From positions 556,936-620,935 of the forward strand of contig NZ_JAJKFK010000004.1 in the NCBI RefSeq assembly GCF_021653975.1: 64,000 nt of DNA, written 5' to 3'. The notes under the pieces are model-generated. The model was not told where the DNA came from. It saw nothing but the letters and a program-made list of their open reading frames with translations, and did not search any database. The translations under genes and the position numbers were made by a program. This DNA comes from Amycolatopsis sp. GM8. GTDB lineage: Bacteria > Actinomycetota > Actinomycetes > Mycobacteriales > Pseudonocardiaceae. Below, in pieces: positions 6,471-29,042 of this stretch. Positions within the stretch are counted from its first letter, which is position 1; the number at the start of each line of letters is the position of its first letter.

Positions 6471-7892
6471 TTATCCGACCTGGGCGAGGAACTCGTTGCG
6501 GCCGGCTTCTTCGCGGTAGTGCCAGGTGTCGCGGACGCACACGGGGCACCAGTGCCCGGCGGTGAGCACGAGTCTCGGGCTGCCGGTGAACTCGTGGCCG
6601 AACGCGCACCGCCAGGCCAGCGGCGTGGCGATGTCGCCGCGCCGCGCGTCGGTGCTCAGCAGCGCACCGCCGCGGAACCGGGCCACCGCGGTGTAGTCCA
6701 CAGTGGACCAGTCTTCGTCCGGTTTGGACTCGTCGTAGCCGTGGTCGAGCAGTTTCGGGATCCGGTCGGGGGCCGGCGGGGTGAAAGTCGACCAGTCGCC
6801 GATGGCCTCCCACTCCGCGCGGGAGCCGAAATAGGCCCGGATCCGCTCGTCGTCGCCGTCGCGGACGAACGACATCGTGCCGCGCGGCTTCCCGGCGAGC
6901 GGTTTCATCACGAAGCGCTTGACCAGCCACGCCGGCACCCTGCCCGCCAGCCGGATCGACCGCGGCGCCGCGGCCAGGATGCGGGCCAGCGCGCCGTCGA
7001 ACGTGTCCTCGCGGAACGGCACCAACTGCTGCAGGCGGTCGGAGTCGGTGTACCACTGGCCGTGGAAGTTCCTGGTGGCGAACCAGTTCCGGTCGTACCA
7101 GGCGCGCACGTCCGGGACGCCGACAGCGGCGGCCAGCCGGCTCTGCAGGTCCCAGTGTGTCAGCCGCCATTCCTCGCCGCCGCCGATGTTGTAGATGCCG
7201 CCCCACAGTCCGGCGGGCGTGTCGTCCTCGCAGATACCGGCCATGAGCCGGGCCGCGTCCTGTACGGACACCCATTCCATAGCGCCTTCCAGCGGGGTGT
7301 GCGTGATGATCGGGTCGCGGATCTCGAGCACGCCGGGATGGAAGATGCCGGTCTGGCGCAACCACACCCATTTCGGCAGACCGGAGTCGACCAGCGCCCG
7401 CTCGGCGATGATCTTGCTCTGCCCGTACTCGTCGTAGTGCGAAACCCGCAGCGGGTCGCCGATCCGGCCCCAGTGGTGCGGCGGGTTGCGGTCGCCGGTC
7501 TCGGCGATCGAACCGACCCCGACGACCCCGATCGCGCCCGGATCCGGCTGGGCCCGCACCGCCTCGATGATGTTGCGCATGCTGCCCACGTTGACCCGGT
7601 GGGCGAGCTCCGGGTGGTCGTCGGCGAACGGCGAGACCACCGCGCCCAGGTGCAGCACGAAATCCGCGCCACGGACACAGGTCTCGACCGCGGCGTAGTC
7701 GGTCAGGTCTCCGAAATGGACGGTCAGGTTGGGCATGGCGGCGAACTCAGCGATCGCCGCGCGCTCGGCGGGCAGCACGAGCGCCACGACGTCGAACCGC
7801 CCGGCCCGGCCGGCGAACTCACGCAGGATGTAGCGACCCCAGTTGCCGGTGGCACCAGTGAGGAAGACCCGCTTGCGGGTGCGCTGGCTCAT
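6471..7892 (-). CDS. NAD-dependent epimerase/dehydratase with C-terminal metal-binding-like tail
   Basis: A 473-residue extended short-chain dehydrogenase. The Rossmann loop is TGATGNWG near residue 13, the catalytic pair is YGQSK, and the usual LHLGAVVSP strand is present. Substrate unknown; family members act on nucleotide sugars or related alcohols. The protein is about 130 residues longer than a typical epimerase, and the tail contains C-x3-H (CAFGH) and C-x2-C (CPVC) about 25 residues later, which could bind zinc. A TAGCGT box at 7899-7904 lies 6 nt upstream of the ATG, so the transcript is probably leaderless. corA begins 21 bp after its stop. Confidence 0.8.
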   Translation of the reverse strand: MSQRTRKRVFLTGATGNWGRYILREFAGRAGRFDVVALVLPAERAAIAEFAAMPNLTVHFGDLTDYAAVETCVRGADFVLHLGAVVSPFADDHPELAHRVNVGSMRNIIEAVRAQPDPGAIGVVGVGSIAETGDRNPPHHWGRIGDPLRVSHYDEYGQSKIIAERALVDSGLPKWVWLRQTGIFHPGVLEIRDPIITHTPLEGAMEWVSVQDAARLMAGICEDDTPAGLWGGIYNIGGGEEWRLTHWDLQSRLAAAVGVPDVRAWYDRNWFATRNFHGQWYTDSDRLQQLVPFREDTFDGALARILAAAPRSIRLAGRVPAWLVKRFVMKPLAGKPRGTMSFVRDGDDERIRAYFGSRAEWEAIGDWSTFTPPAPDRIPKLLDHGYDESKPDEDWSTVDYTAVARFRGGALLSTDARRGDIATPLAWRCAFGHEFTGSPRLVLTAGHWCPVCVRDTWHYREEAGRNEFLAQVG

Positions 7893-17703: not shown

Positions 17704-18492
17704 TCAGGCGCGGATGGTGGCTGCCAGTTCGTCGGCGAGTTCGGGGGTCGCGGCGACGACGCCGGACCAGCGGCGGCTCAGGTCGGGGTCGATCTCGACG
17801 GGACGGCCGAACGCGTCGATCACCACGCCACCCGCCGCGGGCAGCAGCACCGCGGCCGCGGCGATGTCCATGATGCGGTGCGTGTCGGAACCCGCGTCGG
17901 CGAAGGCATCCGTACTGCCTTGAGCCACGAGCGCCGCCTCGAGGCAGCTGCTGGAGAGGATCCGCACCCGCGCGGCGCGGCGGCTCACCCGCAGCCACGC
18001 CGCCTCGTTCTTCCGGTGCGGACGCAGCAGGCTCACCGCGGCGCCGTCCAGCTCCCGGCGGCCACTGGTGCGGTACGGGCCCGGCTCCCCGGCCTTGGCG
18101 TGCCAGCTGCGGCCGGTGTCGAGCCAGGTGGTGAGCGACTCGACCGCCTTCCCGTCGATGGCGACCACCCCGGCGAACGCGGCGAACGGCACCCCGGCGA
18201 CGGCGTTCGCGGTGCCGTCGACCGGATCCACGACGAGGGTGACGGCGGAACCGTTGTCCACCACCCCGATCTCCTCGCTGATCAGGTTGACCCGTTGCGC
18301 CGCGGCGGTTTCCGCGACCGCGGTGTCGACCAGCAGGTCCAGGCGCGTGGTGGGGGTGCCGTCCGCGCCGATCTCGACCTTCTCGGCGAGGGCGGCACGA
18401 TCATGCGCGCGCCGCGCGTCGTGGAAGGCCGTCATCGCCGCGCGGGCCACGGCGGCCAGCGCGGGATGGGTACCGTCCGGGATCTCGATCAT
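17704..18492 (-). CDS. Inositol-monophosphatase family phosphatase in the phosphonate operon
   Basis: A 262-residue Mg-dependent, lithium-sensitive-type phosphatase. Metal ligands are in LISEEIG (E73, E74) and DPVDGTAN (D89, D92), with the C-terminal aspartate in HRIMDIAA. ATG 18492 overlaps the phnM stop (ATGA) and has GGGGGG upstream, so I prefer it to the ATG 12 bp earlier. As the last gene of the phn operon, coupled to phnM, it probably acts on a phosphorylated ribose product of C-P lyase; that substrate is inferred. No phnN or phnP gene is present, and this enzyme might do related work. Confidence 0.85.
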   Translation of the reverse strand: MIEIPDGTHPALAAVARAAMTAFHDARRAHDRAALAEKVEIGADGTPTTRLDLLVDTAVAETAAAQRVNLISEEIGVVDNGSAVTLVVDPVDGTANAVAGVPFAAFAGVVAIDGKAVESLTTWLDTGRSWHAKAGEPGPYRTSGRRELDGAAVSLLRPHRKNEAAWLRVSRRAARVRILSSSCLEAALVAQGSTDAFADAGSDTHRIMDIAAAAVLLPAAGGVVIDAFGRPVEIDPDLSRRWSGVVAATPELADELAATIRA

Positions 18493-19667
18493 CGTGCCCC
18501 CCATAGTACGGATCGCACCATCGGCCAGGGCTCTCGTGGTTCGACGAGCGCCAGGTCCGCCCGCAGGCCCGGCGCGAGCCGGCCGCGGTCGGTCAGGCCC
18601 GCGACCTCCGCCGGGCCGCTGGTGACGAGGGCGATGGCGGCGGGCAGCGTGGCGATGCCCTCCTTGGCGAGCAGCATCGCCGCGGCCAGCAAACCCGAGG
18701 GCAGGTAGTCCGAGGCCACCGCCGTCACCAGGCCCCGCTCGATCAGGTCCCGCCCGGACGCGTTGCCGTTGTGCGACCGCCCGCGCAGCACGTTCGGGGC
18801 ACCGACCACCACCGGCAGACCCTGTTCCCGCGCCGCTTCCGCCGCTTCGAGGGTGGTCGGGAACTCGGCCACCGCTCCCCCGCGTTCGATCAGCTCGCCG
18901 ATTTCCCCGGCAGAGCTCGGATCGTGGCCCAGCAACCGGATCCGCTCGGACCGCGCGCCGAGCCAGGAAAGCGCTTCCTCGCGCACGTCCAGCAGGCCGT
19001 CCCGGTCCACGATGAGCTGATCGACGTGGCGGCGAGCCTCCACTTCGGACATTCCGCGGCGACCCACCAGATACCGCTCGTAGTATTCGCGGTCGGCGTA
19101 CTGACCCTGACCCGGCGTGTGGTCCTCATGCGACACCAGCGCCCCGTCGGGCACCTGCTCCAGCCGCTCCCGCAATGCGGCCAGCCCCTCGGGGCTGCGC
19201 ACGTCGAGCCGGTACAGGATCCGGTGGTCGACCAGCCCGCCCGGGTAGGTATCGACCGCCTCGCAGACCTTCTCCGCCTGCTCCACGGTCCGCCGGATAC
19301 CGCGGCCGTGGCTCTCCTCGAACCCGATGCCGTGGAACACCGTCGTCACACCCGCGGCGTGCAGCTTGCCCTCGAAGGACAGGATCGCGAACTCGACCGG
19401 CAGCTCGGCGCCGGGCCGCGGCATCCGCTCGTTCTCCAGCCCGTCGCTGTGCGTGTCAACGAGGCCGGGCACGCACAGCAGGCCCTGACCGTCCACATCG
19501 GACGACGATCCGGCCGGATGCGGCTCCACCGCGGCGATCCGGCCGTCACGGACGACGATGCGCGAATCGTCGAGCAGCCGGTCCGGCAATACCGCCCGCA
19601 CGTGCCCGAGCACGTAGTCCGCGGGCGGCGCGGCCAGTGTCCAGGATTCGGCGACCGGGGTGGTCAT
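18489..19667 (-). CDS. phnM: Alpha-D-ribose 1-methylphosphonate 5-triphosphate diphosphatase PhnM
   Basis: A 392-residue amidohydrolase-fold enzyme that removes pyrophosphate from ribose 1-methylphosphonate 5-triphosphate, giving the 5-phosphate substrate of C-P lyase. The metal motif HxD appears in PGLVDTHSDGLENE, followed by FEGKLHAAGVTTVFHGI, HEDHTPGQGQ and VVVGAPNVLRGRSHNGN, all typical of PhnM. The ATG at 19667 overlaps the phnL stop (ATGA) and its own stop overlaps the phosphatase start in the same way. Confidence 0.93.
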   Translation of the reverse strand: MTTPVAESWTLAAPPADYVLGHVRAVLPDRLLDDSRIVVRDGRIAAVEPHPAGSSSDVDGQGLLCVPGLVDTHSDGLENERMPRPGAELPVEFAILSFEGKLHAAGVTTVFHGIGFEESHGRGIRRTVEQAEKVCEAVDTYPGGLVDHRILYRLDVRSPEGLAALRERLEQVPDGALVSHEDHTPGQGQYADREYYERYLVGRRGMSEVEARRHVDQLIVDRDGLLDVREEALSWLGARSERIRLLGHDPSSAGEIGELIERGGAVAEFPTTLEAAEAAREQGLPVVVGAPNVLRGRSHNGNASGRDLIERGLVTAVASDYLPSGLLAAAMLLAKEGIATLPAAIALVTSGPAEVAGLTDRGRLAPGLRADLALVEPREPWPMVRSVLWGAR

Positions 19668-20413
19668 GCGACACCTTCCAGAATCTCGTCGGGTTTCCCC
19701 GTGCGGTCGACCAGCCCGCCCGACATCAGCACGACCCGGGACGCGAGCCGGCGCATCGCGTCCAGGTCGTGGAACACGGCGAGCACCGCGACCCCTTGCC
19801 CGGCAAGGGATCCGACCAGCTCCAGCGCGGCCTCCCGGTTCGCCGGGTCCAAAGCGGACACCGGCTCGTCGAGCAGGAGCAGCCGCGGCGGGCGGACGGT
19901 ACCGGCCGCGAGGTTGACGCGCTGGCGTTCGCCGCCCGAGAGCACTCCGCAGTCGACGTCCCACAGCGCCTCGTCGAGGTTGAGCCGCCGCAGGGCGGCC
20001 GCAGCCGCCTCCTTCGACGCTTCCCGGTCCAGACCACGTCGACGGGCGGCCGCCGCGACGACCTCCCACGGCCCGGTCCGCGGCGGCGCGGCGAGGAACT
20101 GGGAAACGTATCCGATTTCGCGGCCGCGCAGCCGCGCCATCGCCCGGTCGGCGAGGCCGGTCAGCTCGACGTCCTCGGTGCCGGTGCACAGCACGACCGT
20201 GCCGGAGTCGGGCAGATAGGTGCGGTAGACACAGCGCAGCAGCGACGACTTGCCGGCGCCACTGGGCCCAGCGAGCGCTACGTGCTCACCGGCGTGCACG
20301 TCGAGGTCGACGCCGTGCAGGGATTCGACGGTCCGCCCGTCGATCGTGTGCAGCACGAAGGACTTGCGCAGCCCGCGCACACTCAGCACAGGTTCGGTAG
20401 CGGATTTCACCAC
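19664..20413 (-). CDS. phnL: C-P lyase accessory ABC-type ATPase PhnL
   Basis: A 249-residue ABC protein with Walker A GPSGAGKSS, signature LSGGERQR and Walker B LLLLDEPVSALD. The insert VYRTYLPDSG and the SFVLHTIDGRTV start are characteristic of PhnL, which takes part in forming ribose 1-methylphosphonate 5-triphosphate with PhnGHI and also docks on PhnK in known assemblies. The GTG at 20413 comes 2 bp after the phnJK stop, with AGGAG 6 nt upstream; a second GTG follows directly at 20410. No membrane domain is present, as expected. Confidence 0.92.
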   Translation of the reverse strand: MVKSATEPVLSVRGLRKSFVLHTIDGRTVESLHGVDLDVHAGEHVALAGPSGAGKSSLLRCVYRTYLPDSGTVVLCTGTEDVELTGLADRAMARLRGREIGYVSQFLAAPPRTGPWEVVAAAARRRGLDREASKEAAAAALRRLNLDEALWDVDCGVLSGGERQRVNLAAGTVRPPRLLLLDEPVSALDPANREAALELVGSLAGQGVAVLAVFHDLDAMRRLASRVVLMSGGLVDRTGKPDEILEGVA

Positions 20414-20415
20414 GG

Positions 20416-22218
20416 TTATCTCCTGGCCGCGGCGACGAGCCGCTGGGTGTAGGGATGGTGCGGATCGTGGAACAGCTGGTCGGTCAGGCCGCGCTCGACG
20501 ACCCGCCCGAGCTGCATGACCACGGTGCGGTCGGTGAGCGCCTCGATCACCGCGAAGTCATGGCTGACCACCACCGCCGCGACGTCCCGTTCGGCGAGCA
20601 GGCCGCGCAGCAGGTCGAGCACCCCGGCGGCGACCGAGGCGTCGAGACCGGTGGTGGGCTCGTCGAGCAGCAGCACCGGCGGATCGGTGGCGAGCGCCTT
20701 GGCGATCTGCACGCGCTGGCGCATCCCACCGGAGAAGGTACGCACCGGATCGTCCATTCGCGACAGTGGCACCTCGACCCGGTCGAGCAGCTCCGCGGCC
20801 CGGCGGCGGATCGCGTGGTAGCCGCGCCAGCCCGCGGCGGTCAGCCGCTCGGCGATGTTCCCGCCCGCCGTGACGCCGAGATCGAGCCCCGCGGCCGGGT
20901 CCTGGTGCACCACGGCCATCTCAGCGATGCGCAGCCGCCGCCGCTCGTCGGCGGGCAGCCGCAGCACATCCGTGCGCCCGCCGTCGACCGCGGCCAGGTG
21001 CACCTGACCGGCCGTGGCGTCCACGTCGCCGATCACGCAACCGAGCACAGTGGACTTCCCGGATCCTGATTCGCCGATGACACCAAGGGCTTCACCGGGA
21101 GCGACGTCGAACGACACGTCCCATGCGGCGACGATCGCGCCGGTCGCCGGGCTGATCGCGGTCCCGTTCTCAGGACCGGTGCCCGGAACGGCTCCGGCCC
21201 CGCCCCGCCCGTGCACCTTCCCGATGCCCGACACGCGCAACGACCATTCCTGCTCACCGGACACCCGCGCCGGAGCGACGTACGGCTCGATCGTGGCGGC
21301 GCCTGCCATCCGGGTCCGCGGGTCGGGCAGCAGGTGCAACGGCGCGCGCTCGCGATGACCGGCCACGTCCGCGTCCCGGTCCCGTACCCGCGAGCACCAT
21401 TCGGTGTCGCTGCACAGGTATCCGCCGTCGGCACCGGCTTCCACCAGGAACACGTCGTCGCTGCCGCACAGCCGGCACCGCGCGCCGGGCGCGTGCTCGA
21501 CCTCGAACGGCACGTCGTCGAAGGCCAGCGGCCGGACGTCGGTGTGTGGCGGCACCGCGTAGATCTTCTTCTCCCGCCCGGCGCCGAACAGGTTCAGGTG
21601 CTCGCACTGGTGCAGCCGCGGCACATCCCAGCGCGGGATCGGGCTGGAGGCCATCACGAACCGGCCGCCGACGAGCACCGGATATCCGCTGCCCCGGGTG
21701 ATCACTCCATTTCGGACCAGATCCTCGTACAGACTCACCCAGATCTTCGAGTAATCGTCCTCGGCATGCATGCGGGCGCACTCGGCGACGGACTTTTCCA
21801 CGCCGCGCAACGGTTCCGGCACCGGCACCTGGTAGACGAGCACATGCTCGTCGCCGAGCTTCTCCTCCGGAATCCGGTGCCGCGTCTGGATGACTGTGGC
21901 CTCGCGAGTGTCGGCGGACTCGGCACAACCGGTGGTCGAGGCGATCATCCGGCGCAGGTTGGTCGCGTTCACCCCGGCGTCGTCGCCCTGGTCGATCACC
22001 TTGACCGTGTCGCCGGGGCCGATCACCGCGAGCGTCACCTGCAGCCCGCCCGAACCCCAGCCGCGGGCGACGGGCATCTCGCGGGAGCCGAACGGCACCT
22101 GGTAGCCGGGCACGCAGACCGCGGTGAGCACCGCGCGGCGGATCTCGCGTTTGGCGCCCTCGTCCAGGATCCCCTGCTCGCGTTCCAGCTCGTCGACAAG
22201 GTCCATTGTGGACGTCAT
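20416..22218 (-). CDS. PhnJ-PhnK fusion: radical-SAM C-P lyase joined to its ABC ATPase
   Basis: One open frame of 600 residues holds two proteins that are usually separate. Residues 1-300 are PhnJ, the enzyme that cleaves the C-P bond of ribose 1-methylphosphonate 5-phosphate; its cluster and catalytic cysteines are C248, C251, C269 and C275, with the C-x5-C spacing of E. coli. Residues 322-600 are PhnK, with Walker A GESGSGKS (382-389), HQDPAAGLD, signature FSGGMRQR (495-502), Walker B LLLDEP and H-loop H553. A glycine/proline-rich linker around 335-350 joins them, and no stop or restart is visible. PhnK binds PhnJ in the E. coli complex, so the fusion makes structural sense. The ATG at 22218 shares a base with the phnI stop (TGATG). 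Confidence 0.92.
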   Translation of the reverse strand: MTSTMDLVDELEREQGILDEGAKREIRRAVLTAVCVPGYQVPFGSREMPVARGWGSGGLQVTLAVIGPGDTVKVIDQGDDAGVNATNLRRMIASTTGCAESADTREATVIQTRHRIPEEKLGDEHVLVYQVPVPEPLRGVEKSVAECARMHAEDDYSKIWVSLYEDLVRNGVITRGSGYPVLVGGRFVMASSPIPRWDVPRLHQCEHLNLFGAGREKKIYAVPPHTDVRPLAFDDVPFEVEHAPGARCRLCGSDDVFLVEAGADGGYLCSDTEWCSRVRDRDADVAGHRERAPLHLLPDPRTRMAGAATIEPYVAPARVSGEQEWSLRVSGIGKVHGRGGAGAVPGTGPENGTAISPATGAIVAAWDVSFDVAPGEALGVIGESGSGKSTVLGCVIGDVDATAGQVHLAAVDGGRTDVLRLPADERRRLRIAEMAVVHQDPAAGLDLGVTAGGNIAERLTAAGWRGYHAIRRRAAELLDRVEVPLSRMDDPVRTFSGGMRQRVQIAKALATDPPVLLLDEPTTGLDASVAAGVLDLLRGLLAERDVAAVVVSHDFAVIEALTDRTVVMQLGRVVERGLTDQLFHDPHHPYTQRLVAAARR

Positions 22219-23330
22219 CAGCATTCCTTCCCGGCCGGGTCGGCCGGCCGCTCGGCCGGTCCCTCGCCGGCTTCGGCGGCCACGCGCATGGCCTGCTTGC
22301 GTTCCACGATGGAGCGGAACGTCACGTAGTGCGGCAGCTTCAAGTGTTCGAGGAAACCGGCGGAGTCCAGCCCATCGACGGTCAGCAGCAACAGCTGCTC
22401 CAGCGGGCCCTTCCGGCCGAAGCGCCGGTTCGCGATGTCCAGATTGGACATCGCGATCGCCTTGCGCTCGTTGTGCCCGAAGCAGAGTCCGTAGCCGACG
22501 TCGAGCCGGGTGCGGTCCTCGTCGGCGCCGTCGAGGTTCTCGATCGCCTCGGCCTCGGTGACCCGGAACTCGCCCAGTGTCACCGGGTTTCCGGTGTGCG
22601 GGTGCCGCACGCGCAGCGGGACGCGGCCGTGCCGGACCTCGCCGAGCGTCACCTCGTGCACATCGCCGTCCGGGCCGAGGATCGAGCGGTACCACAGCGA
22701 AACGAGGCCACCGGTCTCGGCGCGCGCCATCGACGCGAGCACCGCTGACCGGGGCGCCGGCGGACGGGCGGGCTTGCGGGTGATGTCGACCGGCTCCGGG
22801 TCGTCCCCGCGGCGCTGGTCGGCGACCAGATCCAGTTTCCGCAGCAGGTCGAGGAACCGGCGGGGGCGGCGATGCTCCTCGGAGCGCTCGCGCGCCGGGC
22901 GATCCTGCACGGTGCCCGGCTCCGGCGGGCCGTCGGGCTGTTCGAGCAGGCGGCCGGTGTAGTCGGTGGTGCGGCCGAGCAGCTGCGGGCCGTCCGGCTC
23001 GCGGAACGCGGGCACGATCCGGCGCAGCACGGTCATCTCGTCGGGATCGACCGGTTCGCTGACGGCCAGCCGCGGCAGCGTGGACCGGTGCGCCCGCACC
23101 AGATGCGAGGCCTCCAGCGGGTCACCCTCGGCCTGGCGCAGCGCGGCCGCCGCCGTCGGCTCATGGTACAGACCACCTTCGCCCATCACCCGGTCCACGG
23201 CGAGCCGGAACCGCGCGGTGATCTGCTCCGTCGACGCCCACGGCGCCGGGGCGTGATCCCGCGCGCGCCGCACCAGGTCCTCGGCGGCGAGGATGGCCTC
23301 CAGCCCGCCGCGTGCTCCCGAGTACCCCAT
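22218..23330 (-). CDS. phnI: C-P lyase core subunit PhnI
   Basis: A 370-residue subunit of the PhnGHIJ core. It supplies the nucleosidase activity that, with PhnG, PhnH and PhnL, attaches the phosphonate to the ribose of ATP. Recognisable segments are MGYSGARGGLEAILAAEDLV at the N-terminus, LDVGYGLCFGHNERKAIAMS, and DGLDSAGFLEHLKLPHYVTF near the end. Length matches the family (about 350-370). It is joined to phnH and phnJK by TGATG overlaps, which would help equal output of core subunits. Confidence 0.95.
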   Translation of the reverse strand: MGYSGARGGLEAILAAEDLVRRARDHAPAPWASTEQITARFRLAVDRVMGEGGLYHEPTAAAALRQAEGDPLEASHLVRAHRSTLPRLAVSEPVDPDEMTVLRRIVPAFREPDGPQLLGRTTDYTGRLLEQPDGPPEPGTVQDRPARERSEEHRRPRRFLDLLRKLDLVADQRRGDDPEPVDITRKPARPPAPRSAVLASMARAETGGLVSLWYRSILGPDGDVHEVTLGEVRHGRVPLRVRHPHTGNPVTLGEFRVTEAEAIENLDGADEDRTRLDVGYGLCFGHNERKAIAMSNLDIANRRFGRKGPLEQLLLLTVDGLDSAGFLEHLKLPHYVTFRSIVERKQAMRVAAEAGEGPAERPADPAGKEC

Positions 23331-23902
23331 CAGCGCTCGCTCCCTTCGATGACGGTCGTGCGCGGGATCCCGGCCATCCGGCCGTCCGGCGCGATCAGCA
23401 GCAGGTCGATGCCGGCCGGGTACCCCGCCACCGCTTCGGCTCGGGCCGCGAGCAGACCGTCCACTCCGGACAGCCGCACCGTGCCGGGGATGCCGGGCCC
23501 GGACAGCTCCCAGTCCTCACCATCCACTTCGGACACGGCAAGACACACGAGCGCGCCTTCCTCGGGCGCGAAAGCGCTTCCCCGGCCCACGGCGCGCAGC
23601 TCGTCACCGGTCATCGGCCGGGTCGCCGCGACGAACCGTGCCGAACCTGTCTCCGCGGCGGGCGCCGAGGTGACCACGCCGACCGCGTCGGCCCAATCCT
23701 CGCCCTCGTCCAGCACCGCCACGGTGGTCCCCAGGTCGGCCAGTGCCAGCACCGGCAGCAGCACCGCGGGCACACCGGGACGTTCTGGCAGGCGGACGAT
23801 CCGTCCGGGCCGCGACAACGCGTCCAGCACCGCGCGGAACACCTGCCGCGACTCGTCCGGCCGCAGCGTGGCCGCGGCGATCCGGTCCAGGATGGCCGTC
23901 AC
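23330..23902 (-). CDS. phnH: C-P lyase core subunit PhnH
   Basis: A 190-residue core subunit. PhnH features seen are ESRQVFRAVLDALSRPGRI at residues 17-35, LLPVLALADLGTTVAVLD, and the C-terminal YPAGIDLLLIAPDGRMAGIP followed by TTVIE. It helps build the active PhnGHIJ complex. The GTG at 23902 overlaps the phnG stop (GTGA), and its own stop TGA shares its last base with the phnI ATG. Confidence 0.93.
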   Translation of the reverse strand: MTAILDRIAAATLRPDESRQVFRAVLDALSRPGRIVRLPERPGVPAVLLPVLALADLGTTVAVLDEGEDWADAVGVVTSAPAAETGSARFVAATRPMTGDELRAVGRGSAFAPEEGALVCLAVSEVDGEDWELSGPGIPGTVRLSGVDGLLAARAEAVAGYPAGIDLLLIAPDGRMAGIPRTTVIEGSER

Positions 23903-24333
23903 GTCAGCTCCTCGAATTCGACGATGGTGGGCGCCAGTTCGGCCCATTCCGCGGCCTCGCGTTCCACGCGCCGCCGGGCGACCGCGTGGCACAGCTCTTC
24001 GACGCGTGCCGAGCGGGGTCGCGCGGCTTCGGCCTCCGCGTCGAGTACCGCGGCGGCCAGCGTGGCGGCCCGGTCGTCGCCGAGGCGCATCGACCAGCCG
24101 CGCTGCCCCGCCAGCTCGACCTCGGCGCGGCAGGCGAGCACATCCCCGAGCAGGAACCGTTCCGCCAGCACGGGTTCGCGCACCTGCGCGGCGACCGCCC
24201 CCACCTCCGGCCCGGTCAGCACGCGCACGGCGGCGCCGTCGGCGAGACACTCGTCGGCCAGCGCGACCAGCTCGTCCCGCTCGGCCTCCGCGAGCAGCGC
24301 GCACCGCTGCTCGCGGCTCAACACGTCGGTCAC
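23899..24333 (-). CDS. phnG: C-P lyase core subunit PhnG
   Basis: A 144-residue subunit. The segment AERFLLGDVLACRAEVELA followed by GWSMRLGDDRAATLAAAVLD aligns with the E. coli PhnG stretch ERFFAGD...GYSWVLGRD. The start is the GTG at 24333, which overlaps the phnF stop as GTGA; the frame continues open upstream but encodes nothing recognisable there. PhnG is needed with PhnH, PhnI and PhnL for transfer of phosphonate to ribose. Confidence 0.9.
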   Translation of the reverse strand: MTDVLSREQRCALLAEAERDELVALADECLADGAAVRVLTGPEVGAVAAQVREPVLAERFLLGDVLACRAEVELAGQRGWSMRLGDDRAATLAAAVLDAEAEAARPRSARVEELCHAVARRRVEREAAEWAELAPTIVEFEELT

Positions 24334-25055
24334 TGCACCACCTCCGGAATCGTTTCGGTCAGTTCGACGATCACGCGGACCGCGTCGGCCCTGGTCCACG
24401 CCGCACTGCACATAAGCACCCGCCCGCTCCCGGCGTCCCGGCTGAGGCTCTCCCCGAGATAGACCGGGCAGCTCGCCTCGATGCCCAGCTCCCGCAGCAC
24501 ATGCGCCGGCGGCATCTCCAGGCTCACCCGGTACCACGCGCGCACCGGCCGGACCCGGCCCATCTGCCGCAGCACCACGTCGATCGAGTCGACCACCTGC
24601 AGCGCCATGTCCAGATCGGGCACGACGTCGACCGGGATCCACTCCTCGGTCCAGGTCGCCAGCAGCTCGTCGATGTAGAACTCGCGCACGACGTGGTGCG
24701 CCAGCGACCCCGGCTCGCGTTCCAGCCGGGCGGCCTCCGTCTCGGGCAGACCGGCCCGGTCGACGGCCTTGACCATCGCGCGCGGGGTCGCGCCCGACGC
24801 CTCCACCGTCGCGTGCCACGACGGCGGGCGGCTGCGGGAGATCACGTAGTCGATGCGGGAGTTGACGAACGTGCCCGCCCCCTGCACCCGGCGCACCAGC
24901 AGTCGGCGCTCCAGCTCCTGCAGCGCGGACCGGGCCGCCGCCCGTCCCACCCCGAACCGGCTGGCCAGCTCGGGTTCGCTCGCGACCCGGGTCCCGGGCG
25001 CGCACCCGGCCAGCTCGCCCGCGAGCCGGTCGGCGATCTCGAGATACCTCGTCAT
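24330..25055 (-). CDS. phnF: GntR/UTRA family regulator PhnF
   Basis: A 241-residue regulator with an N-terminal winged HTH (PELASRFGVGRAAARSALQE, VQGAGTFVNSRIDYVI) and a UTRA effector domain (residues 80-241) like those of phosphonate-operon regulators. It should repress the phn genes when phosphate is plentiful or when ligand is absent. The ATG at 25055 has only GGGGG close by; CAGTGT 7 nt upstream may be a -10 box, which would make it leaderless. The 108-bp gap upstream holds a perfect palindrome, TTGTCCGGACAA, possibly its own operator. Confidence 0.88.
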   Translation of the reverse strand: MTRYLEIADRLAGELAGCAPGTRVASEPELASRFGVGRAAARSALQELERRLLVRRVQGAGTFVNSRIDYVISRSRPPSWHATVEASGATPRAMVKAVDRAGLPETEAARLEREPGSLAHHVVREFYIDELLATWTEEWIPVDVVPDLDMALQVVDSIDVVLRQMGRVRPVRAWYRVSLEMPPAHVLRELGIEASCPVYLGESLSRDAGSGRVLMCSAAWTRADAVRVIVELTETIPEVVQ

Positions 25056-25078
25056 GCCCCCGACACTGCTCGCCCGCC

Positions 25079-25090
25079 TTGTCCGGACAA
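25079..25090. promoter_or_regulatory. Palindrome TTGTCCGGACAA upstream of phnF
   Basis: A perfect 12-bp palindrome 24 bp upstream of the phnF start, inside the only sizeable internal gap of the phn operon. The half-site CCGGACAA recurs at 29094-29101, upstream of phnD. Two such sites at the two likely promoters of one regulon suggest a PhnF operator, but this is inference. A further ACAACTG/CAGTTGT pair (25087-25093 and 25137-25143) spans the same gap. Confidence 0.4.
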
Positions 25091-25163
25091 CTGCGCGGCG
25101 TGAAACCCGCCGGACACCGGAAGTGAACATCCGAGACAGTTGTTTCTCGCCTCCACGTAGGTA

Positions 25164-25694
25164 TCAGCGCCAGAGCTGGTGCAGGAGCGGCTCGAAGGAC
25201 TCCAGTGGGCGCGTGGGGACGCCCGGGACCTTCGCGGCGTCGTCCCAGCGCCGCAACTCGGCGGCCTCCCGCGCCCACGGGTGCGCCTCGAACTCGGCGA
25301 CCTCTTCGGGTGTCATCGGCCCGCCTTGCCGCACCAGCGACCGCTGCGAGACGGGGCTGAGCGACTCCGCGTACCCGGCGTCCACCACCACGAGGTACCG
25401 CTTGGCCGGGACATGCTGCCCGACCAGGAACGCGGCGCGCTCCCCACAGTGCCGCAGACAGAAATCCGCCCCTGCCTGCTCGTGGGGCAGGCCGCGGTAG
25501 TGCTCGACGACCCCGGGCGCGCGGCCGACGTCGTGCAGCAGCGCCGCCACCACGACCTCGATGTCCGCCTCGGCCGTGAGCGCGTGCCCGGCGGTCTGCA
25601 GGGCGTGCTGGAGCTGGTCGACGGCCTCGCCGCCGTCGTAGTCGCCCGCCATCGCCCGGAGGACGGCGAGCGTGTCGGGCACTGAGAACCACAT
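25164..25694 (-). CDS. PhnZ-like HD-domain diiron oxygenase for phosphonates
   Basis: A 176-residue HD-domain protein that matches PhnZ along its length: EAVDQLQHALQ, ALLHDVGR, LPHEQAGADF, GQHVPAKRYLV, RQGGPM and RWDDAAK. The expected iron ligands are all present (H30, H54, D55, H71, H94, D151). PhnZ uses O2 to cleave the C-P bond of an alpha-hydroxy-phosphonate. The lid region differs slightly: Y19 and E23 are four residues apart, where I recall three in PhnZ. AAGGAG lies 8 nt before the ATG. It sits 14 bp after phnE, before phnF. No PhnY hydroxylase gene is in the window, so the substrate is open. Confidence 0.82.
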   Translation of the reverse strand: MWFSVPDTLAVLRAMAGDYDGGEAVDQLQHALQTAGHALTAEADIEVVVAALLHDVGRAPGVVEHYRGLPHEQAGADFCLRHCGERAAFLVGQHVPAKRYLVVVDAGYAESLSPVSQRSLVRQGGPMTPEEVAEFEAHPWAREAAELRRWDDAAKVPGVPTRPLESFEPLLHQLWR

Positions 25695-25708
25695 AGCTGA
25701 ACTCCTTG

Positions 25709-27295
25709 CTAACGAACAACACGGCGCAGCCCGACGGCGAGCAGCTCGACGGCCATCACCACCACGAACACCAGCGCCAGAATCGCTGTGACCGCGCCGA
25801 ATTCGAGCACCCGCGAGGCATTCAGCAGGTCGAACCCGATCCCACCCGCACCGACGATGCCGAGCAGCGTGGCCGACCGGATGTTCACGTCGAGCTGGTA
25901 GAGCACATGCGCGACGAACGCGGGCGCGGCCTGCGGCAGCGTCGCGGAGAAGAACACCTGCCACCGCCCGGCACCGGTCGCGCGCAACGCCTGCTCGACA
26001 CCGGGATCGACCTCCTCCAGGGAGTCGGCGACGAGCTTGCCGAGCAGCCCGACGACGCCGACGGCGAGCGCGAGCGCCCCGGCGACCGGGCCGAGCCCGC
26101 TGATCACCACGAACACGATCGCGAGCACCAACTCCGGGATGCCGCGCACCCCGACGATCAGCAGCCGGAAGAACCGCGCGGCGTTCGGCGCCACGTTCCG
26201 GGCGGCCAGCGCCCCGAACGGCAACGCCAGCACCGCACCCAGCAGGGTCGCGGCGAGCGCGATCTTGACGGTCTCCCACAGGTCGCCGGCCAGCACCGGG
26301 AGGAACTCCGGCGGCCAGAACAGTGACAGCGTGTGGCCGAGGTTGCCGAGCGCGCCGAAGAACTGGCCCGCCGACAAGTGCGCGCCCCAGATCGAGGCGA
26401 GCACGATGACCAAGGTGAGCACCGCGTAACCCGTCTTCCCGATCCTCGCCATCGTCCACTGTGGACTGACCTGGCCGGCGCGGCGCGGCGGCGGCATGGT
26501 CACTTTGGGGCGCAGCAAGGCGTTCCGGATCGCGCCGGAGAGGAACTCGACGACCACGCACAGGATCAGCACGACGAGCGCGAGCGCCATGCCGCGGCGG
26601 TAGTCGAGCTCGCGCAGCGAGGTGGCGATCGCGTAGCCGAGCCCGTCGACGCCGACGAACCCGAGCACCACCGAGACCCGCAGGTTGATGTCGAGCCGGT
26701 GCAGCGCGGTCGCCACCAGCGCGGGCAGCACCTGCGGCAGCACCCCGGCGATTAGCTCCTGCCCGCCGGCCGCGCCGCCCGCGCGCACGGCCGCGCGCGG
26801 GCCCTCGTCGATCTGCTCGATCGCGTCGGCGTAGAGCTTGCCGACCATGCCGACCGAATGCAGGCCCATGGCCAGGATCCCGGCCATCGCGCCGAACCCG
26901 AACACGCGGAAGAACACGATCGCCAGCACCACGTCCGGCACCGCGCGGGCCGCGACGATGACGGCGCGCGAGGCGAACCGGGCGCCGCGGTGCGGGGTCG
27001 TGTTGCCCGCCGCGAGCACCGCCAGCACGATGCTGATCACCACCGACAGCAGCGTCGAGCAGACGACGATCGACAGCGTCTGCCCGGTCAGCTTCAGCAG
27101 CTCCCCGGCCGGTGGGAAGTCGAGCGGCAGCATCCGGCCGGCGAAGTCCGCCGCGTTGCCCGCGCTGTCGACCAGGGTCGCCACGTTGATCCGCAGGTCG
27201 CCGACCGCCCACGCGGCCAGCGCGAACAGCGCCAGCAGCGTGAGCGTCGCGGCGACCGGGCCCGTCTTGGGACGGGCGAGCGTGCGGACCGTCAT
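25709..27295 (-). CDS. phnE: Phosphonate ABC transporter permease, PhnE1-PhnE2 fusion
   Basis: A 528-residue permease with two homologous halves, each about the size of a single PhnE. The first half has the EAA-type coupling region around AIEQIDEGPRAAVRAGGA and ends in VDGLGYAIATSLRELDY; the second repeats it with SLEEVDPGVEQALRATGAG and AGGIGFDLLNASRVLEF. The pair would form the whole membrane channel in one chain. GTP-like or ATP sites are absent, as expected. The ATG at 27295 overlaps the phnC stop (ATGA). A copy of TCCACWGTGGA lies in the hinge between halves (26455). Confidence 0.92.
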   Translation of the reverse strand: MTVRTLARPKTGPVAATLTLLALFALAAWAVGDLRINVATLVDSAGNAADFAGRMLPLDFPPAGELLKLTGQTLSIVVCSTLLSVVISIVLAVLAAGNTTPHRGARFASRAVIVAARAVPDVVLAIVFFRVFGFGAMAGILAMGLHSVGMVGKLYADAIEQIDEGPRAAVRAGGAAGGQELIAGVLPQVLPALVATALHRLDINLRVSVVLGFVGVDGLGYAIATSLRELDYRRGMALALVVLILCVVVEFLSGAIRNALLRPKVTMPPPRRAGQVSPQWTMARIGKTGYAVLTLVIVLASIWGAHLSAGQFFGALGNLGHTLSLFWPPEFLPVLAGDLWETVKIALAATLLGAVLALPFGALAARNVAPNAARFFRLLIVGVRGIPELVLAIVFVVISGLGPVAGALALAVGVVGLLGKLVADSLEEVDPGVEQALRATGAGRWQVFFSATLPQAAPAFVAHVLYQLDVNIRSATLLGIVGAGGIGFDLLNASRVLEFGAVTAILALVFVVVMAVELLAVGLRRVVR

Positions 27296-28050
27296 GCGCT
27301 GCCCACCAGCGCGGCACCGCCGTAGATGGTGGCCGCCGCGGTGTGGTCGAGCGTGCGGGCCGGCTGGTCCAGTACGACCCGGCCCGAGCGCAGCCCGATG
27401 ATGCGGTCCGCCCACGCCAGCGCCAGCTCGACCTGGTGCAGGCTGCACAGCACCGTCAGGTCCCGCTCGGCCGCGATCTCCCGGATCAGCCGCATCACCT
27501 GCGCCGAGGATTCCGGGTCCAGCGACGCGACCGGCTCGTCGGCGAGCAGGATCTCCGGGCGCTGCATGAGCGCGCGGGCGACCGCGACCCGCTGCTGCTG
27601 GCCGCCCGACAACGTGTCGGCACGCTGGAACGCTTGCGGCGCAAGGCCGACGCGCTCCAGGTGGCCCAGTGCCTCCAGCCGGACGGCCTTCGGGTAGCTG
27701 GGCAGGCCCAGCCTCGGCCCGCGTAGCCGCCCGAGCCCGCCGGTGCACACGTTCTCCAGCACCGACAGGCTGCCGACCAGGTGGAACTGCTGGAACACGA
27801 ACCCGATCCGGCGGCGCAGGTCGCGCAAGCGGGCGCCGCGCGCCTGCCCGACGTCCGTGCCCAGCGCCGCCACGGTGCCGCTGGTGGCCGTGTGCAGCCC
27901 GTCGACGTGCCGCAGCAGGGTGGACTTGCCCGAACCGGACAGTCCCAGCAGGACGACCACTTCACCCGGCTCGACCCCGAACGACACGTCGTGCAGCGCG
28001 ATCGTGTGCCCGAACCGCTTGGTCACGCCGTCGAACCGGACGGCGCTCAT
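27292..28050 (-). CDS. phnC: Phosphonate ABC transporter ATP-binding protein PhnC
   Basis: A 252-residue ATPase with Walker A GLSGSGKST, Q-loop FVFQQFHLV, signature LSGGQQQR, Walker B ILLADEPVASLD and H-loop CSLHQVELA. The insert after the Q-loop (VCTGGLGRL...GLPSYPKAV) is characteristic of PhnC. It energises uptake through the fused PhnE. Its ATG at 28050 overlaps the phnD stop by four bases and its stop overlaps phnE, so the uptake genes are translationally coupled. Confidence 0.94.
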   Translation of the reverse strand: MSAVRFDGVTKRFGHTIALHDVSFGVEPGEVVVLLGLSGSGKSTLLRHVDGLHTATSGTVAALGTDVGQARGARLRDLRRRIGFVFQQFHLVGSLSVLENVCTGGLGRLRGPRLGLPSYPKAVRLEALGHLERVGLAPQAFQRADTLSGGQQQRVAVARALMQRPEILLADEPVASLDPESSAQVMRLIREIAAERDLTVLCSLHQVELALAWADRIIGLRSGRVVLDQPARTLDHTAAATIYGGAALVGSA

Positions 28051-28985
28051 GCGGTCGTGCACTGCTTGGACTTGGTGACCTCGCAGACGTGCCGGACGGT
28101 GTCGTAGAACGCGTCGTCCACCTTGGCGTAACCCCAGTCGCCGGCGTCGTCGACCGTGCACTTGTCGTTGGTGCACAGGTTGTTCGCCTTGAAGTAGTCG
28201 CTGTTCGCGTCCTGCTGGAAGACGGTGGCGATCTTGTCCTTCAGCGCCGGGGCGAGGTCGTCGGCCAGTGCCACCGGGGAACCGGCGATGAGGTCGGACT
28301 TCCACACCGTGGTCACGTCACCCGGCTTGAGCTGCCCGCGCTGGATCAGCAGGGTGTCCACCATGACGTCCTCGGCGAACCCGACGTCGCACTGGCCGCT
28401 GGCCACGCCGAGCACGGAGGCGTCGTGCCCGCCCGTCATGACCGGGGTGATGTCGGTGTCGGGGTTCACGCCCGCGTCGAGCAGGCCGGCCCGCGGGTAG
28501 AGATAACCCGAGGTCGAGTTCGGGTCGACGAAGCAGACCTTCTTGCCCTTGAACCCGGCCAGGCCGGTCACCGGCGAGCCCGCCTTGGTGATGCCGTACG
28601 AGCGGTAGCCGGGGGTGCCGCCCTTCTGCGGCAACTGCGCCGCGATCGCGGTCGTCTTCACGCCGGTGGTCTTCGCGACCACGTACGACAGCGGTCCGTA
28701 CTGGGCGATGTCGACCTTGCCGCTGCGCTGCGCCTCGATCACCGCCGCGTAGTCGGTGGCCTGCTGGAACCGGACGGTCTTGCCGGTCTCCTTCTGCAGC
28801 AGGTTGATCACGCCCTGGTAGTCCTGCTGCAGGTCGGTCGAGTTCTCGCTCGGCACCGCCGCGAACACCAGCTCACCGGGGTCGCGCGTGCTGCCGCCGC
28901 TGCCGCCCGCCGCGCTCTGCCCGCAGGCCGTGAGCAGCAGCGCCGCCCCCGTCAGCGCGGCCGCGCGCCACCACTTGTCGCCCAT
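28047..28985 (-). CDS. phnD: Phosphonate ABC transporter substrate-binding lipoprotein PhnD
   Basis: A 312-residue lipoprotein with a short basic start, a hydrophobic stretch and lipobox LLTAC. PhnD features include VFAAVPSENSTDLQQDYQG, the YGPLSYVVA strand, GLAGFKGKKVCFVDPNSTSG, and four cysteines near the C-terminus that could form disulfides outside the cell. It captures phosphonate or phosphite. I chose ATG 28985 because GAGGAGG lies just upstream; an ATG 45 bp earlier would spoil the signal sequence. It is the first gene of the operon, so the main phn promoter should lie in 28986-29113. Confidence 0.93.
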   Translation of the reverse strand: MGDKWWRAAALTGAALLLTACGQSAAGGSGGSTRDPGELVFAAVPSENSTDLQQDYQGVINLLQKETGKTVRFQQATDYAAVIEAQRSGKVDIAQYGPLSYVVAKTTGVKTTAIAAQLPQKGGTPGYRSYGITKAGSPVTGLAGFKGKKVCFVDPNSTSGYLYPRAGLLDAGVNPDTDITPVMTGGHDASVLGVASGQCDVGFAEDVMVDTLLIQRGQLKPGDVTTVWKSDLIAGSPVALADDLAPALKDKIATVFQQDANSDYFKANNLCTNDKCTVDDAGDWGYAKVDDAFYDTVRHVCEVTKSKQCTTA

Positions 28986-29007
28986 CCGTCCTCCTCGCTC
29001 GGTACGC

Positions 29008-29025
29008 CGAGAAGGCTGGTTCTCG
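29008..29025. promoter_or_regulatory. Palindrome in the phnD upstream region
   Basis: CGAGAA at 29008-29013 and TTCTCG at 29020-29025 flank GGCTGG, a perfect 6-bp-armed palindrome 23 bp before the phnD ATG. It could be an operator or a small hairpin in the 5' leader. A half-site CCGGACAA (29094-29101), matching the phnF palindrome, lies further upstream. I cannot place a convincing -35/-10 pair. Confidence 0.3.
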
Positions 29026-29042
29026 CGCATGCCACGAGGGCG

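Follow-up and report, generated by a model that had tools for sequence, protein, structure and literature searches.

A single-chain PhnJ-PhnK fusion in the C-P lyase operon of Amycolatopsis and many other soil actinobacteria

Gly32 and Cys272 of Escherichia coli PhnJ play a radical role in C-P lyase. In the E. coli complex (4xb6, 7z15-7z19) PhnJ and PhnK are separate subunits, and according to the cryo-EM study of it (PMC9947105), PhnK docks on the insertion domain of PhnJ, the contact being formed by PhnJ Glu149, Tyr158, Asp226, Asp228 and Asp229 and by PhnK Arg78, Arg82, Arg116 and Tyr118. The PhnK dimer in turn bears a PhnL dimer, with PhnK Trp29 stacking on PhnL Arg82. The study describes PhnK as opening the core, one PhnK moving 25 A with PhnJ and PhnH in tow, and each PhnK of the open state as moving with its docked PhnJ; it also reports a core whose lone PhnK is flexible and incapable of ATP hydrolysis, and its discussion calls the timing and reason of ATP use in phosphonate breakdown still unclear (PMC9947105).

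We analysed a stretch of 64,000 nucleotides from Amycolatopsis sp. GM8 (contig NZ_JAJKFK010000004.1), hereafter the window, in which one frame encodes PhnJ and PhnK. The span 20416..22218 given for this gene in a preliminary description is exact, and the strand, missing there, is minus. The gene, phnJK, is built as follows.

22218-20416, minus strand: phnJK, a single frame of 600 amino acids without internal stop
21394..22218, minus strand: PhnJ part, residues 1-275; the radical-SAM subunit of C-P lyase, carrying four cysteines for the cluster
21310..21393, minus strand: element conserved in the main fused clade, spanning residues 276-303, with RVxxGDADxxxHxxxAPLxxLPDPxRR at 277-303; ordered by prediction
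21247..21309, minus strand: variable tether, residues 304-324, probably flexible as judged by entropy and pLDDT
20419..21246, minus strand: PhnK part, residues 325-600, an ABC ATPase with its catalytic motifs present
20416..20418, minus strand: stop codon of phnJK, read from the sequence

Profile searches and residue mapping onto E. coli confirm the earlier reading that one frame encodes PhnJ and a complete PhnK ABC domain, with cluster cysteines at 248, 251, 269 and 275. The Pfam PhnJ family (PF06007) matches residues 16-279 (E 1.9e-116, 388.4 bits, over the cut-off of 25) and Pfam ABC_tran residues 367-523 (E 1.5e-26), while NCBIfam PhnK (TIGR02323) matches residues 365-597 (E 4.9e-67) at 225.9 bits, below its curated cut-off of 302.85, and ranks first among the 182 NCBIfam families matched. 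The best PDB match of the PhnJ part is E. coli PhnJ (4xb6_D, E 6.8e-81); by whole-protein phmmer score, the Opp-type ATPase Rv1281c, matching in two stretches, ranks above E. coli PhnK for phnJK. The four cysteines align with E. coli C241, C244, C266 and C272, Gly38 with Gly32, and D519/E520, Q439 and H553 of the PhnK part with E. coli PhnK D170/E171, Q90 and H204. The PhnK part carries the full set of ABC motifs together with the Arg and Tyr residues that face PhnJ, among which R82 depends on the alignment. Third-position GC is 0.81-0.90 throughout the gene, linker included. PhnJ is single-copy in the source genome, and a second, separate PhnK was rejected, as the fusion itself scores highest for PhnK genome-wide, at 228.6 bits, and the next of the matches listed reaches 146.2.

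The gene lies in a C-P lyase operon in which phnG, H, I, J, K, L and M are all represented, and its PhnK part sits between phnI/phnJ and phnL. On the same strand, phnD is followed by an ABC ATPase at the phnC position, the double-PhnE frame, a PhnZ-like HD gene and a PhnF-like regulator; then come phnG, phnH, phnI, phnJK, phnL and phnM, and after them an inositol-monophosphatase-family gene.

28047..29030, minus strand: phnD, phosphonate-binding protein (PF12974, E 2.9e-58)
25709..27748, minus strand: frame with two PhnE permease domains (TIGR01097 in two stretches, E 1.7e-135)
25164-25712, minus strand: PhnZ-like HD-domain gene (Phn-HD model, below cut-off), between transporter and PhnF-like regulator
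24330..25130, minus strand: PhnF-like GntR/UTRA regulator (score below the PhnF cut-off)
23899..24333, minus strand: phnG (PF06754, E 3e-21)
23330..23899, minus strand: phnH (PF05845, E 5.8e-30)
22218..23330, minus strand: phnI (PF05861, E 2.4e-93), its stop overlapping the ATG of phnJK at 22218-22216
19664..20413, minus strand: phnL, a separate gene (TIGR02324, E 7.7e-65, 218.5 bits, cut-off 256.3)
18489..19670, minus strand: phnM (TIGR02318, E 1.3e-94; exceeds the NF011984 cut-off)
17704..18504, minus strand: inositol-monophosphatase-family gene (PF00459, E 5.2e-21), overlapping the end of phnM

PhnG, PhnK and PhnL score below their NCBIfam cut-offs, PhnG being over that of Pfam. The frame with two PhnE domains is a second fusion within the same operon. 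The composition is shared by relatives: across the 45 fused-type rows of the set L032-L110 we found PhnI in 45, PhnM and PhnL in 44 each, and PhnG and PhnH in 43 each, with L061 not counted for PhnL since its match falls within its PhnK, and the gaps are confined to L041, L061 and L073, which are short or cut contigs. For phnN and phnP, no match in the genome exceeds the family cut-off (the highest scores are 48 bits against 156 and 28.6 against 272.25), and E. coli PhnN, PhnP and PhnO as queries gave no match at the loci of the L032-L110 set. The inositol-monophosphatase-family gene probably belongs to the operon and might stand in at the late stages of ribose-phosphate processing. Within that set, 33 of the 45 fused and 14 of the 25 separate rows have a relative of it; among the 33, it lies directly after phnM in 24, between phnL and phnM in 1, and about 5 kb further in 8.

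How common the fusion is had been left open in the preliminary description. Among 79 loci of named genomes, drawn from the best 80 of 221 candidates and for that reason biased towards the fused form, PhnJ and PhnK share one frame at 48, two of which (L084 and L095) fall outside the main clade; 29 of the others have two genes, L074 has both parts with a frameshift, and L089 stops at a contig edge. We then counted matches in taxonomic samples that include the window's own genome where it belongs, at thresholds of E 1e-60 to 1e-70 that a distant PhnJ could escape. The genus sample has a match in 4 of 19 genomes (3 fused, 1 with two genes) and the family sample in 16 of 249, where 14 have a fused copy and 2 separate genes only, G629 carrying a fused copy plus separate PhnJ and PhnK. 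Matches in the order sample number 9 of 397 (4 fused, 1 fused-type but broken, 4 separate), and in the phylum sample 15 of 396, with 14 separate and a single fused one, the window's own. A genus taken as Streptomyces has a match in 5 of 295 (2 fused, 2 separate, 1 with the parts on two contigs). In the window's family the fusion is thus the usual form; across the phylum it is rare.

Within the window's genus, the fused frame of G001 L004 is identical to that of Amycolatopsis acidicola L067, and fused genes also occur in the Streptomyces loci L038, L071 and L075 and perhaps in L137 and L138. The fusion is a property of a large group of soil actinobacteria and spans many genera. Copies on mobile elements were sought and rejected: all 207 matching plasmid records are below 60% identity, the 30 listed being in two pieces each, and the sole matching phage record is likewise below 60% and in two pieces. 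This phage record, Pseudomonas phage Y12 (OQ572413.1, 6128-7776), holds PhnJ- and PhnK-like sequence, which may be host DNA or cargo.

Phylogenetic trees point to one main origin. In the PhnJ tree, built on 110 rows (132 loci minus near-copies, with L074 and L130 labelled fused by hand despite their frameshifts), the 50 fused-type rows of the main clade group together with support 99/91, three state changes are needed overall, and no reversion to two genes is seen among these 50 rows. The PhnK tree, made by a quick method, agrees: it unites 47 fused rows as a clade with an SH-aLRT of 99 and likewise needs three changes. In both trees the program flagged long branches among the outer rows. The fusion is an old, widespread variant of a known machine. 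The fusions of L084, a Synergistaceae MAG, and L095, an Actinomycetes MAG, look like separate and less certain events, their evidence being weaker because each is a single metagenome bin. Both have PhnJ then PhnK in one frame, like the main clade, but differ from it in that the conserved element described below is absent; the junction of L095 contains tandem repeats.

The nearest lineage outside the fusion is a sister clade of Acidimicrobiia, Actinopolymorpha, Streptosporangiaceae bins and two genomes taken as Streptomyces, whose PhnJ is 67-73% identical to the fused form in the named loci. Here phnJ and phnK are separate in 21 of 22 rows, L095 being the fused one, and nothing like residues 277-303 of the fused clade is present. 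A loop of PhnK between its first strands (window residues 337-366) is mostly free of cysteine in this clade, as in the fusion, and is short in L009, L091, L094 and L110. Elsewhere, the loop carries four zinc-ribbon-like cysteines (L007, L008, L011-L019, L078 and L080-L088), the carriers being Paenibacillus, Ktedonobacteria, a Synergistaceae bin and several distant actinobacterial families, and it is kept without the cysteines in most of the fused clade and many sisters.

The E. coli complex shares its subunits, the cluster cysteines and glycine of PhnJ, the ATPase motifs of PhnK and most docking residues with the fused form. In PhnJ of the main fused clade, the four cluster cysteines and the Gly32-equivalent glycine are present in 50 of 50 rows, as are Y158 and D229; the E149 position is Asp in all 50 and the D228 position Asp in 47. 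For PhnK, where three fused-clade rows are left out, Q90, D170, E171, H204, R78 and R116 are each found in 47 of 47 rows, and Y118 is Tyr in 44 and Phe in 3. Two interface positions behave differently: D226 of PhnJ is Thr, Ala or Ser in 50/50 fused rows, and R82 of PhnK corresponds to Arg430 by pairwise alignment and to Ile, Val or Thr by multiple alignment. A relaxed docking surface in the fusions, conceivable with a tether, was rejected, with a mean entropy over the insertion domain (129-169) of 0.54 bits in fused versus 0.47 in sister rows. At the PhnL contact, the stacking Trp29 of E. coli PhnK is replaced by Ala (residue 373) in 47 of 47 fused rows, a change shared with 21 of 22 rows of the sister clade, and 48 fused rows show no variation at PhnL Lys9, Phe11, His14, Arg82 and Glu175 (E. 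coli numbering). PhnL Arg82 is thus kept in 48/48 fused rows despite the Ala at the Trp29 position, set against only 4 sister rows.

An AlphaFold2 model of the single phnJK chain has pTM 0.85 and a mean pLDDT of 87.3. In fold searches its PhnJ part best matches E. coli 7z19_D and its PhnK part 7z19_I, each with TM 0.92 over the target, and the pTM indicates that the two predicted parts are positioned with confidence relative to each other. Indirect support for a docked geometry in the fusion comes from the conservation of most docking residues and from the predicted model, with D226 as an exception.

Taken together, these results make it likely that phnJK encodes a single polypeptide serving as PhnJ and as PhnK at once in a C-P lyase that is ordinary in other respects, with PhnK tethered in cis, docked as in E. 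coli, and present twice per core. Two PhnJK chains would assemble with PhnG, PhnH and PhnI into the core, each PhnK domain docking on the central insertion domain of a PhnJ. The two PhnK domains would dimerise with ATP, separate PhnL would sit on top of the PhnK dimer, and ATP hydrolysis would pull the core open. The covalent tie would guarantee two PhnK per core and keep each PhnK with a PhnJ through the open and closed cycle, so that a tethered PhnK could undock but not diffuse away. The published movement of PhnK by 25 A, pulling PhnJ and PhnH, is compatible with such a tether in cis. A core with a single PhnK, as in E. coli, would be impossible for the fusion unless the chain is cut.

The junction between the two parts, described in the preliminary account as a linker of roughly 30 residues, is better divided in two: its first portion is a predicted ordered, conserved element (277-303, pLDDT 90-96), and only about 20 residues remain as a variable tether, a division that follows from the differences in conservation, entropy and pLDDT along the junction. 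Counted from the final cysteine of the cluster up to the invariant Trp325 at the start of PhnK, the junction is 41-58 residues long (median 52), with 69 in L038 and 218 in L090, as measured in 66 of 68 fused loci, L084 and L095 misfitting the pattern. The length in L090 (Nocardia alni) comes with a tether extended by an in-frame 108-base tandem repeat of 2.7 copies (7017-7305). Many positions of the element are nearly invariant among 46 rows (D282 in 44, D284 in 45, H288 in 45, P293 in 46, L297 in 44, P298 in 45 and R303 in 46), and the mean entropy of residues 276-301 in these fused rows is 1.42 bits because the intervening positions vary. The tether (302-322) has a mean entropy of 2.49 bits, versus 0.65 for PhnJ and 0.52 for PhnK. 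In the AlphaFold2 model, pLDDT is 96, 96 and 90 over 271-300, with helices at 272-279, 285-291 and 300-305, and falls to 57-61 over tether residues 301-320.

Searched with a profile of the element, 72 of the 75 fused-type sources match below 1e-3, a count that includes near-copies and second loci of one place; the profile misses L084, L095 and L142, the last of which contains the PhnK part only. Against 78 non-fused-type sources its best match has E 4.1. The element is therefore confined to the main fused clade, where it is predicted to be an ordered extension of the C-terminal domain of PhnJ that E. coli PhnJ lacks after its last cysteine, and the variable stretch that follows would be the tether. 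We tentatively raise a stronger possibility, which we hold as doubtful: that the element is a new working part, an ordered brace coupling the cluster domain of PhnJ to the tethered ATPase and replacing contacts lost elsewhere in the PhnK-PhnL assembly. In that case a D-x-D-x3-H motif, immediately following the final cysteine of the cluster, might face a metal or the cluster.

The element also bears on the alternative that the fusion is functionally neutral, overlapping and co-translated phnJ and phnK having been joined by a small mutation, with a tether that adds nothing to docking or ratio. Joining the genes needs little change, since they already share a few bases, 4 in E. coli and between 1 and 11 in 7 of 7 plasmid-borne operons examined, and the two further fusions, in single metagenome bins, do without the element. 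Against neutrality, the main-clade junction gained a conserved element that is absent from 78 of 78 non-fused sources searched, and none of the 50 fused rows has returned to two genes. We regard neutrality as possible, though rather on the unlikely side.

The reading of phnJK as a cis-tethered chain implies a fixed 1:1 ratio of PhnJ to PhnK, as proposed earlier, provided that the chain is not cut. Release of free PhnK from the fused gene, by internal initiation or by proteolysis in the tether, seems improbable to us. The tether is predicted to be disordered and hence could be cut, and an in-frame GTG is present as Val335 in 32 of 46 rows and as Val329 in 16, but a start codon (ATG, GTG or TTG) with a Shine-Dalgarno-like stretch occurs over residues 296-350 in only 7 of 46 rows, at five places, 2 of them at 335. 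Control stretches of equal length give 31, 3, 3 and 1 of 46 (31 for residues 100-154), which makes the test a coarse one; over residues 296-330, ATG or GTG with such a stretch appears in 3 of 46 fused genes, with no conserved internal start.

There is a comparably slim chance that the PhnK domain acts in trans, docking across on the other half's PhnJ, or that it chiefly assists assembly. The length of the junction would not prevent this, and in L090 it reaches 218 residues; on the other side, the published open state (PMC9947105) moves PhnK with its docked PhnJ, and the pTM of the single-chain model suggests contact in cis, while a swap would still be compatible with both.

Frameshifts do occur in draft relatives: L063 has one near the end of the PhnK part, L074 one in the middle of it, and L130 (G920) is a fused-type phnJK broken by frameshifts in tether and PhnK. 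As judged by eye, a transposase-like frame lies just downstream of the broken gene in L130. A sequencing error, an assembly join or a decaying gene can nevertheless be discounted almost entirely for phnJK, since the hidden stop and restart once considered is contradicted by the same conserved frame in many independent genomes (48/79 named loci, among them L084 and L095, which are not of the main clade, and L063 despite its late frameshift; 14/16 matching family genomes), which excludes chance and a hidden frameshift, and since operon and catalytic residues are kept.

In the titles, abstract openings and passages of the open-access literature that we searched, no description of a PhnJ-PhnK fusion was found, and one may be in print elsewhere. 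Section 7.2 of a 2021 review (PMC7866108) lists Streptomyces clusters as phnFGHIKLM, phnMLKIHFEEDCNKG and phnMLJIHFCED, and in these three listed clusters only J or only K is found between phnI and phnL. Such listings would result if a fused gene had been given the name of just one half, and the fusion may thus explain Streptomyces clusters reported without phnJ or phnK. More generally, gene inventories that treat phnJ and phnK as two entries may take actinomycete operons for incomplete ones.

That the fusion is kept across many genera suggests that PhnK can remain with PhnJ through the whole cycle and that two PhnK per core are workable. The fused gene offers a convenient route to a purified 1:1 complex and a natural test of how C-P lyase works, and so bears on its open mechanism.
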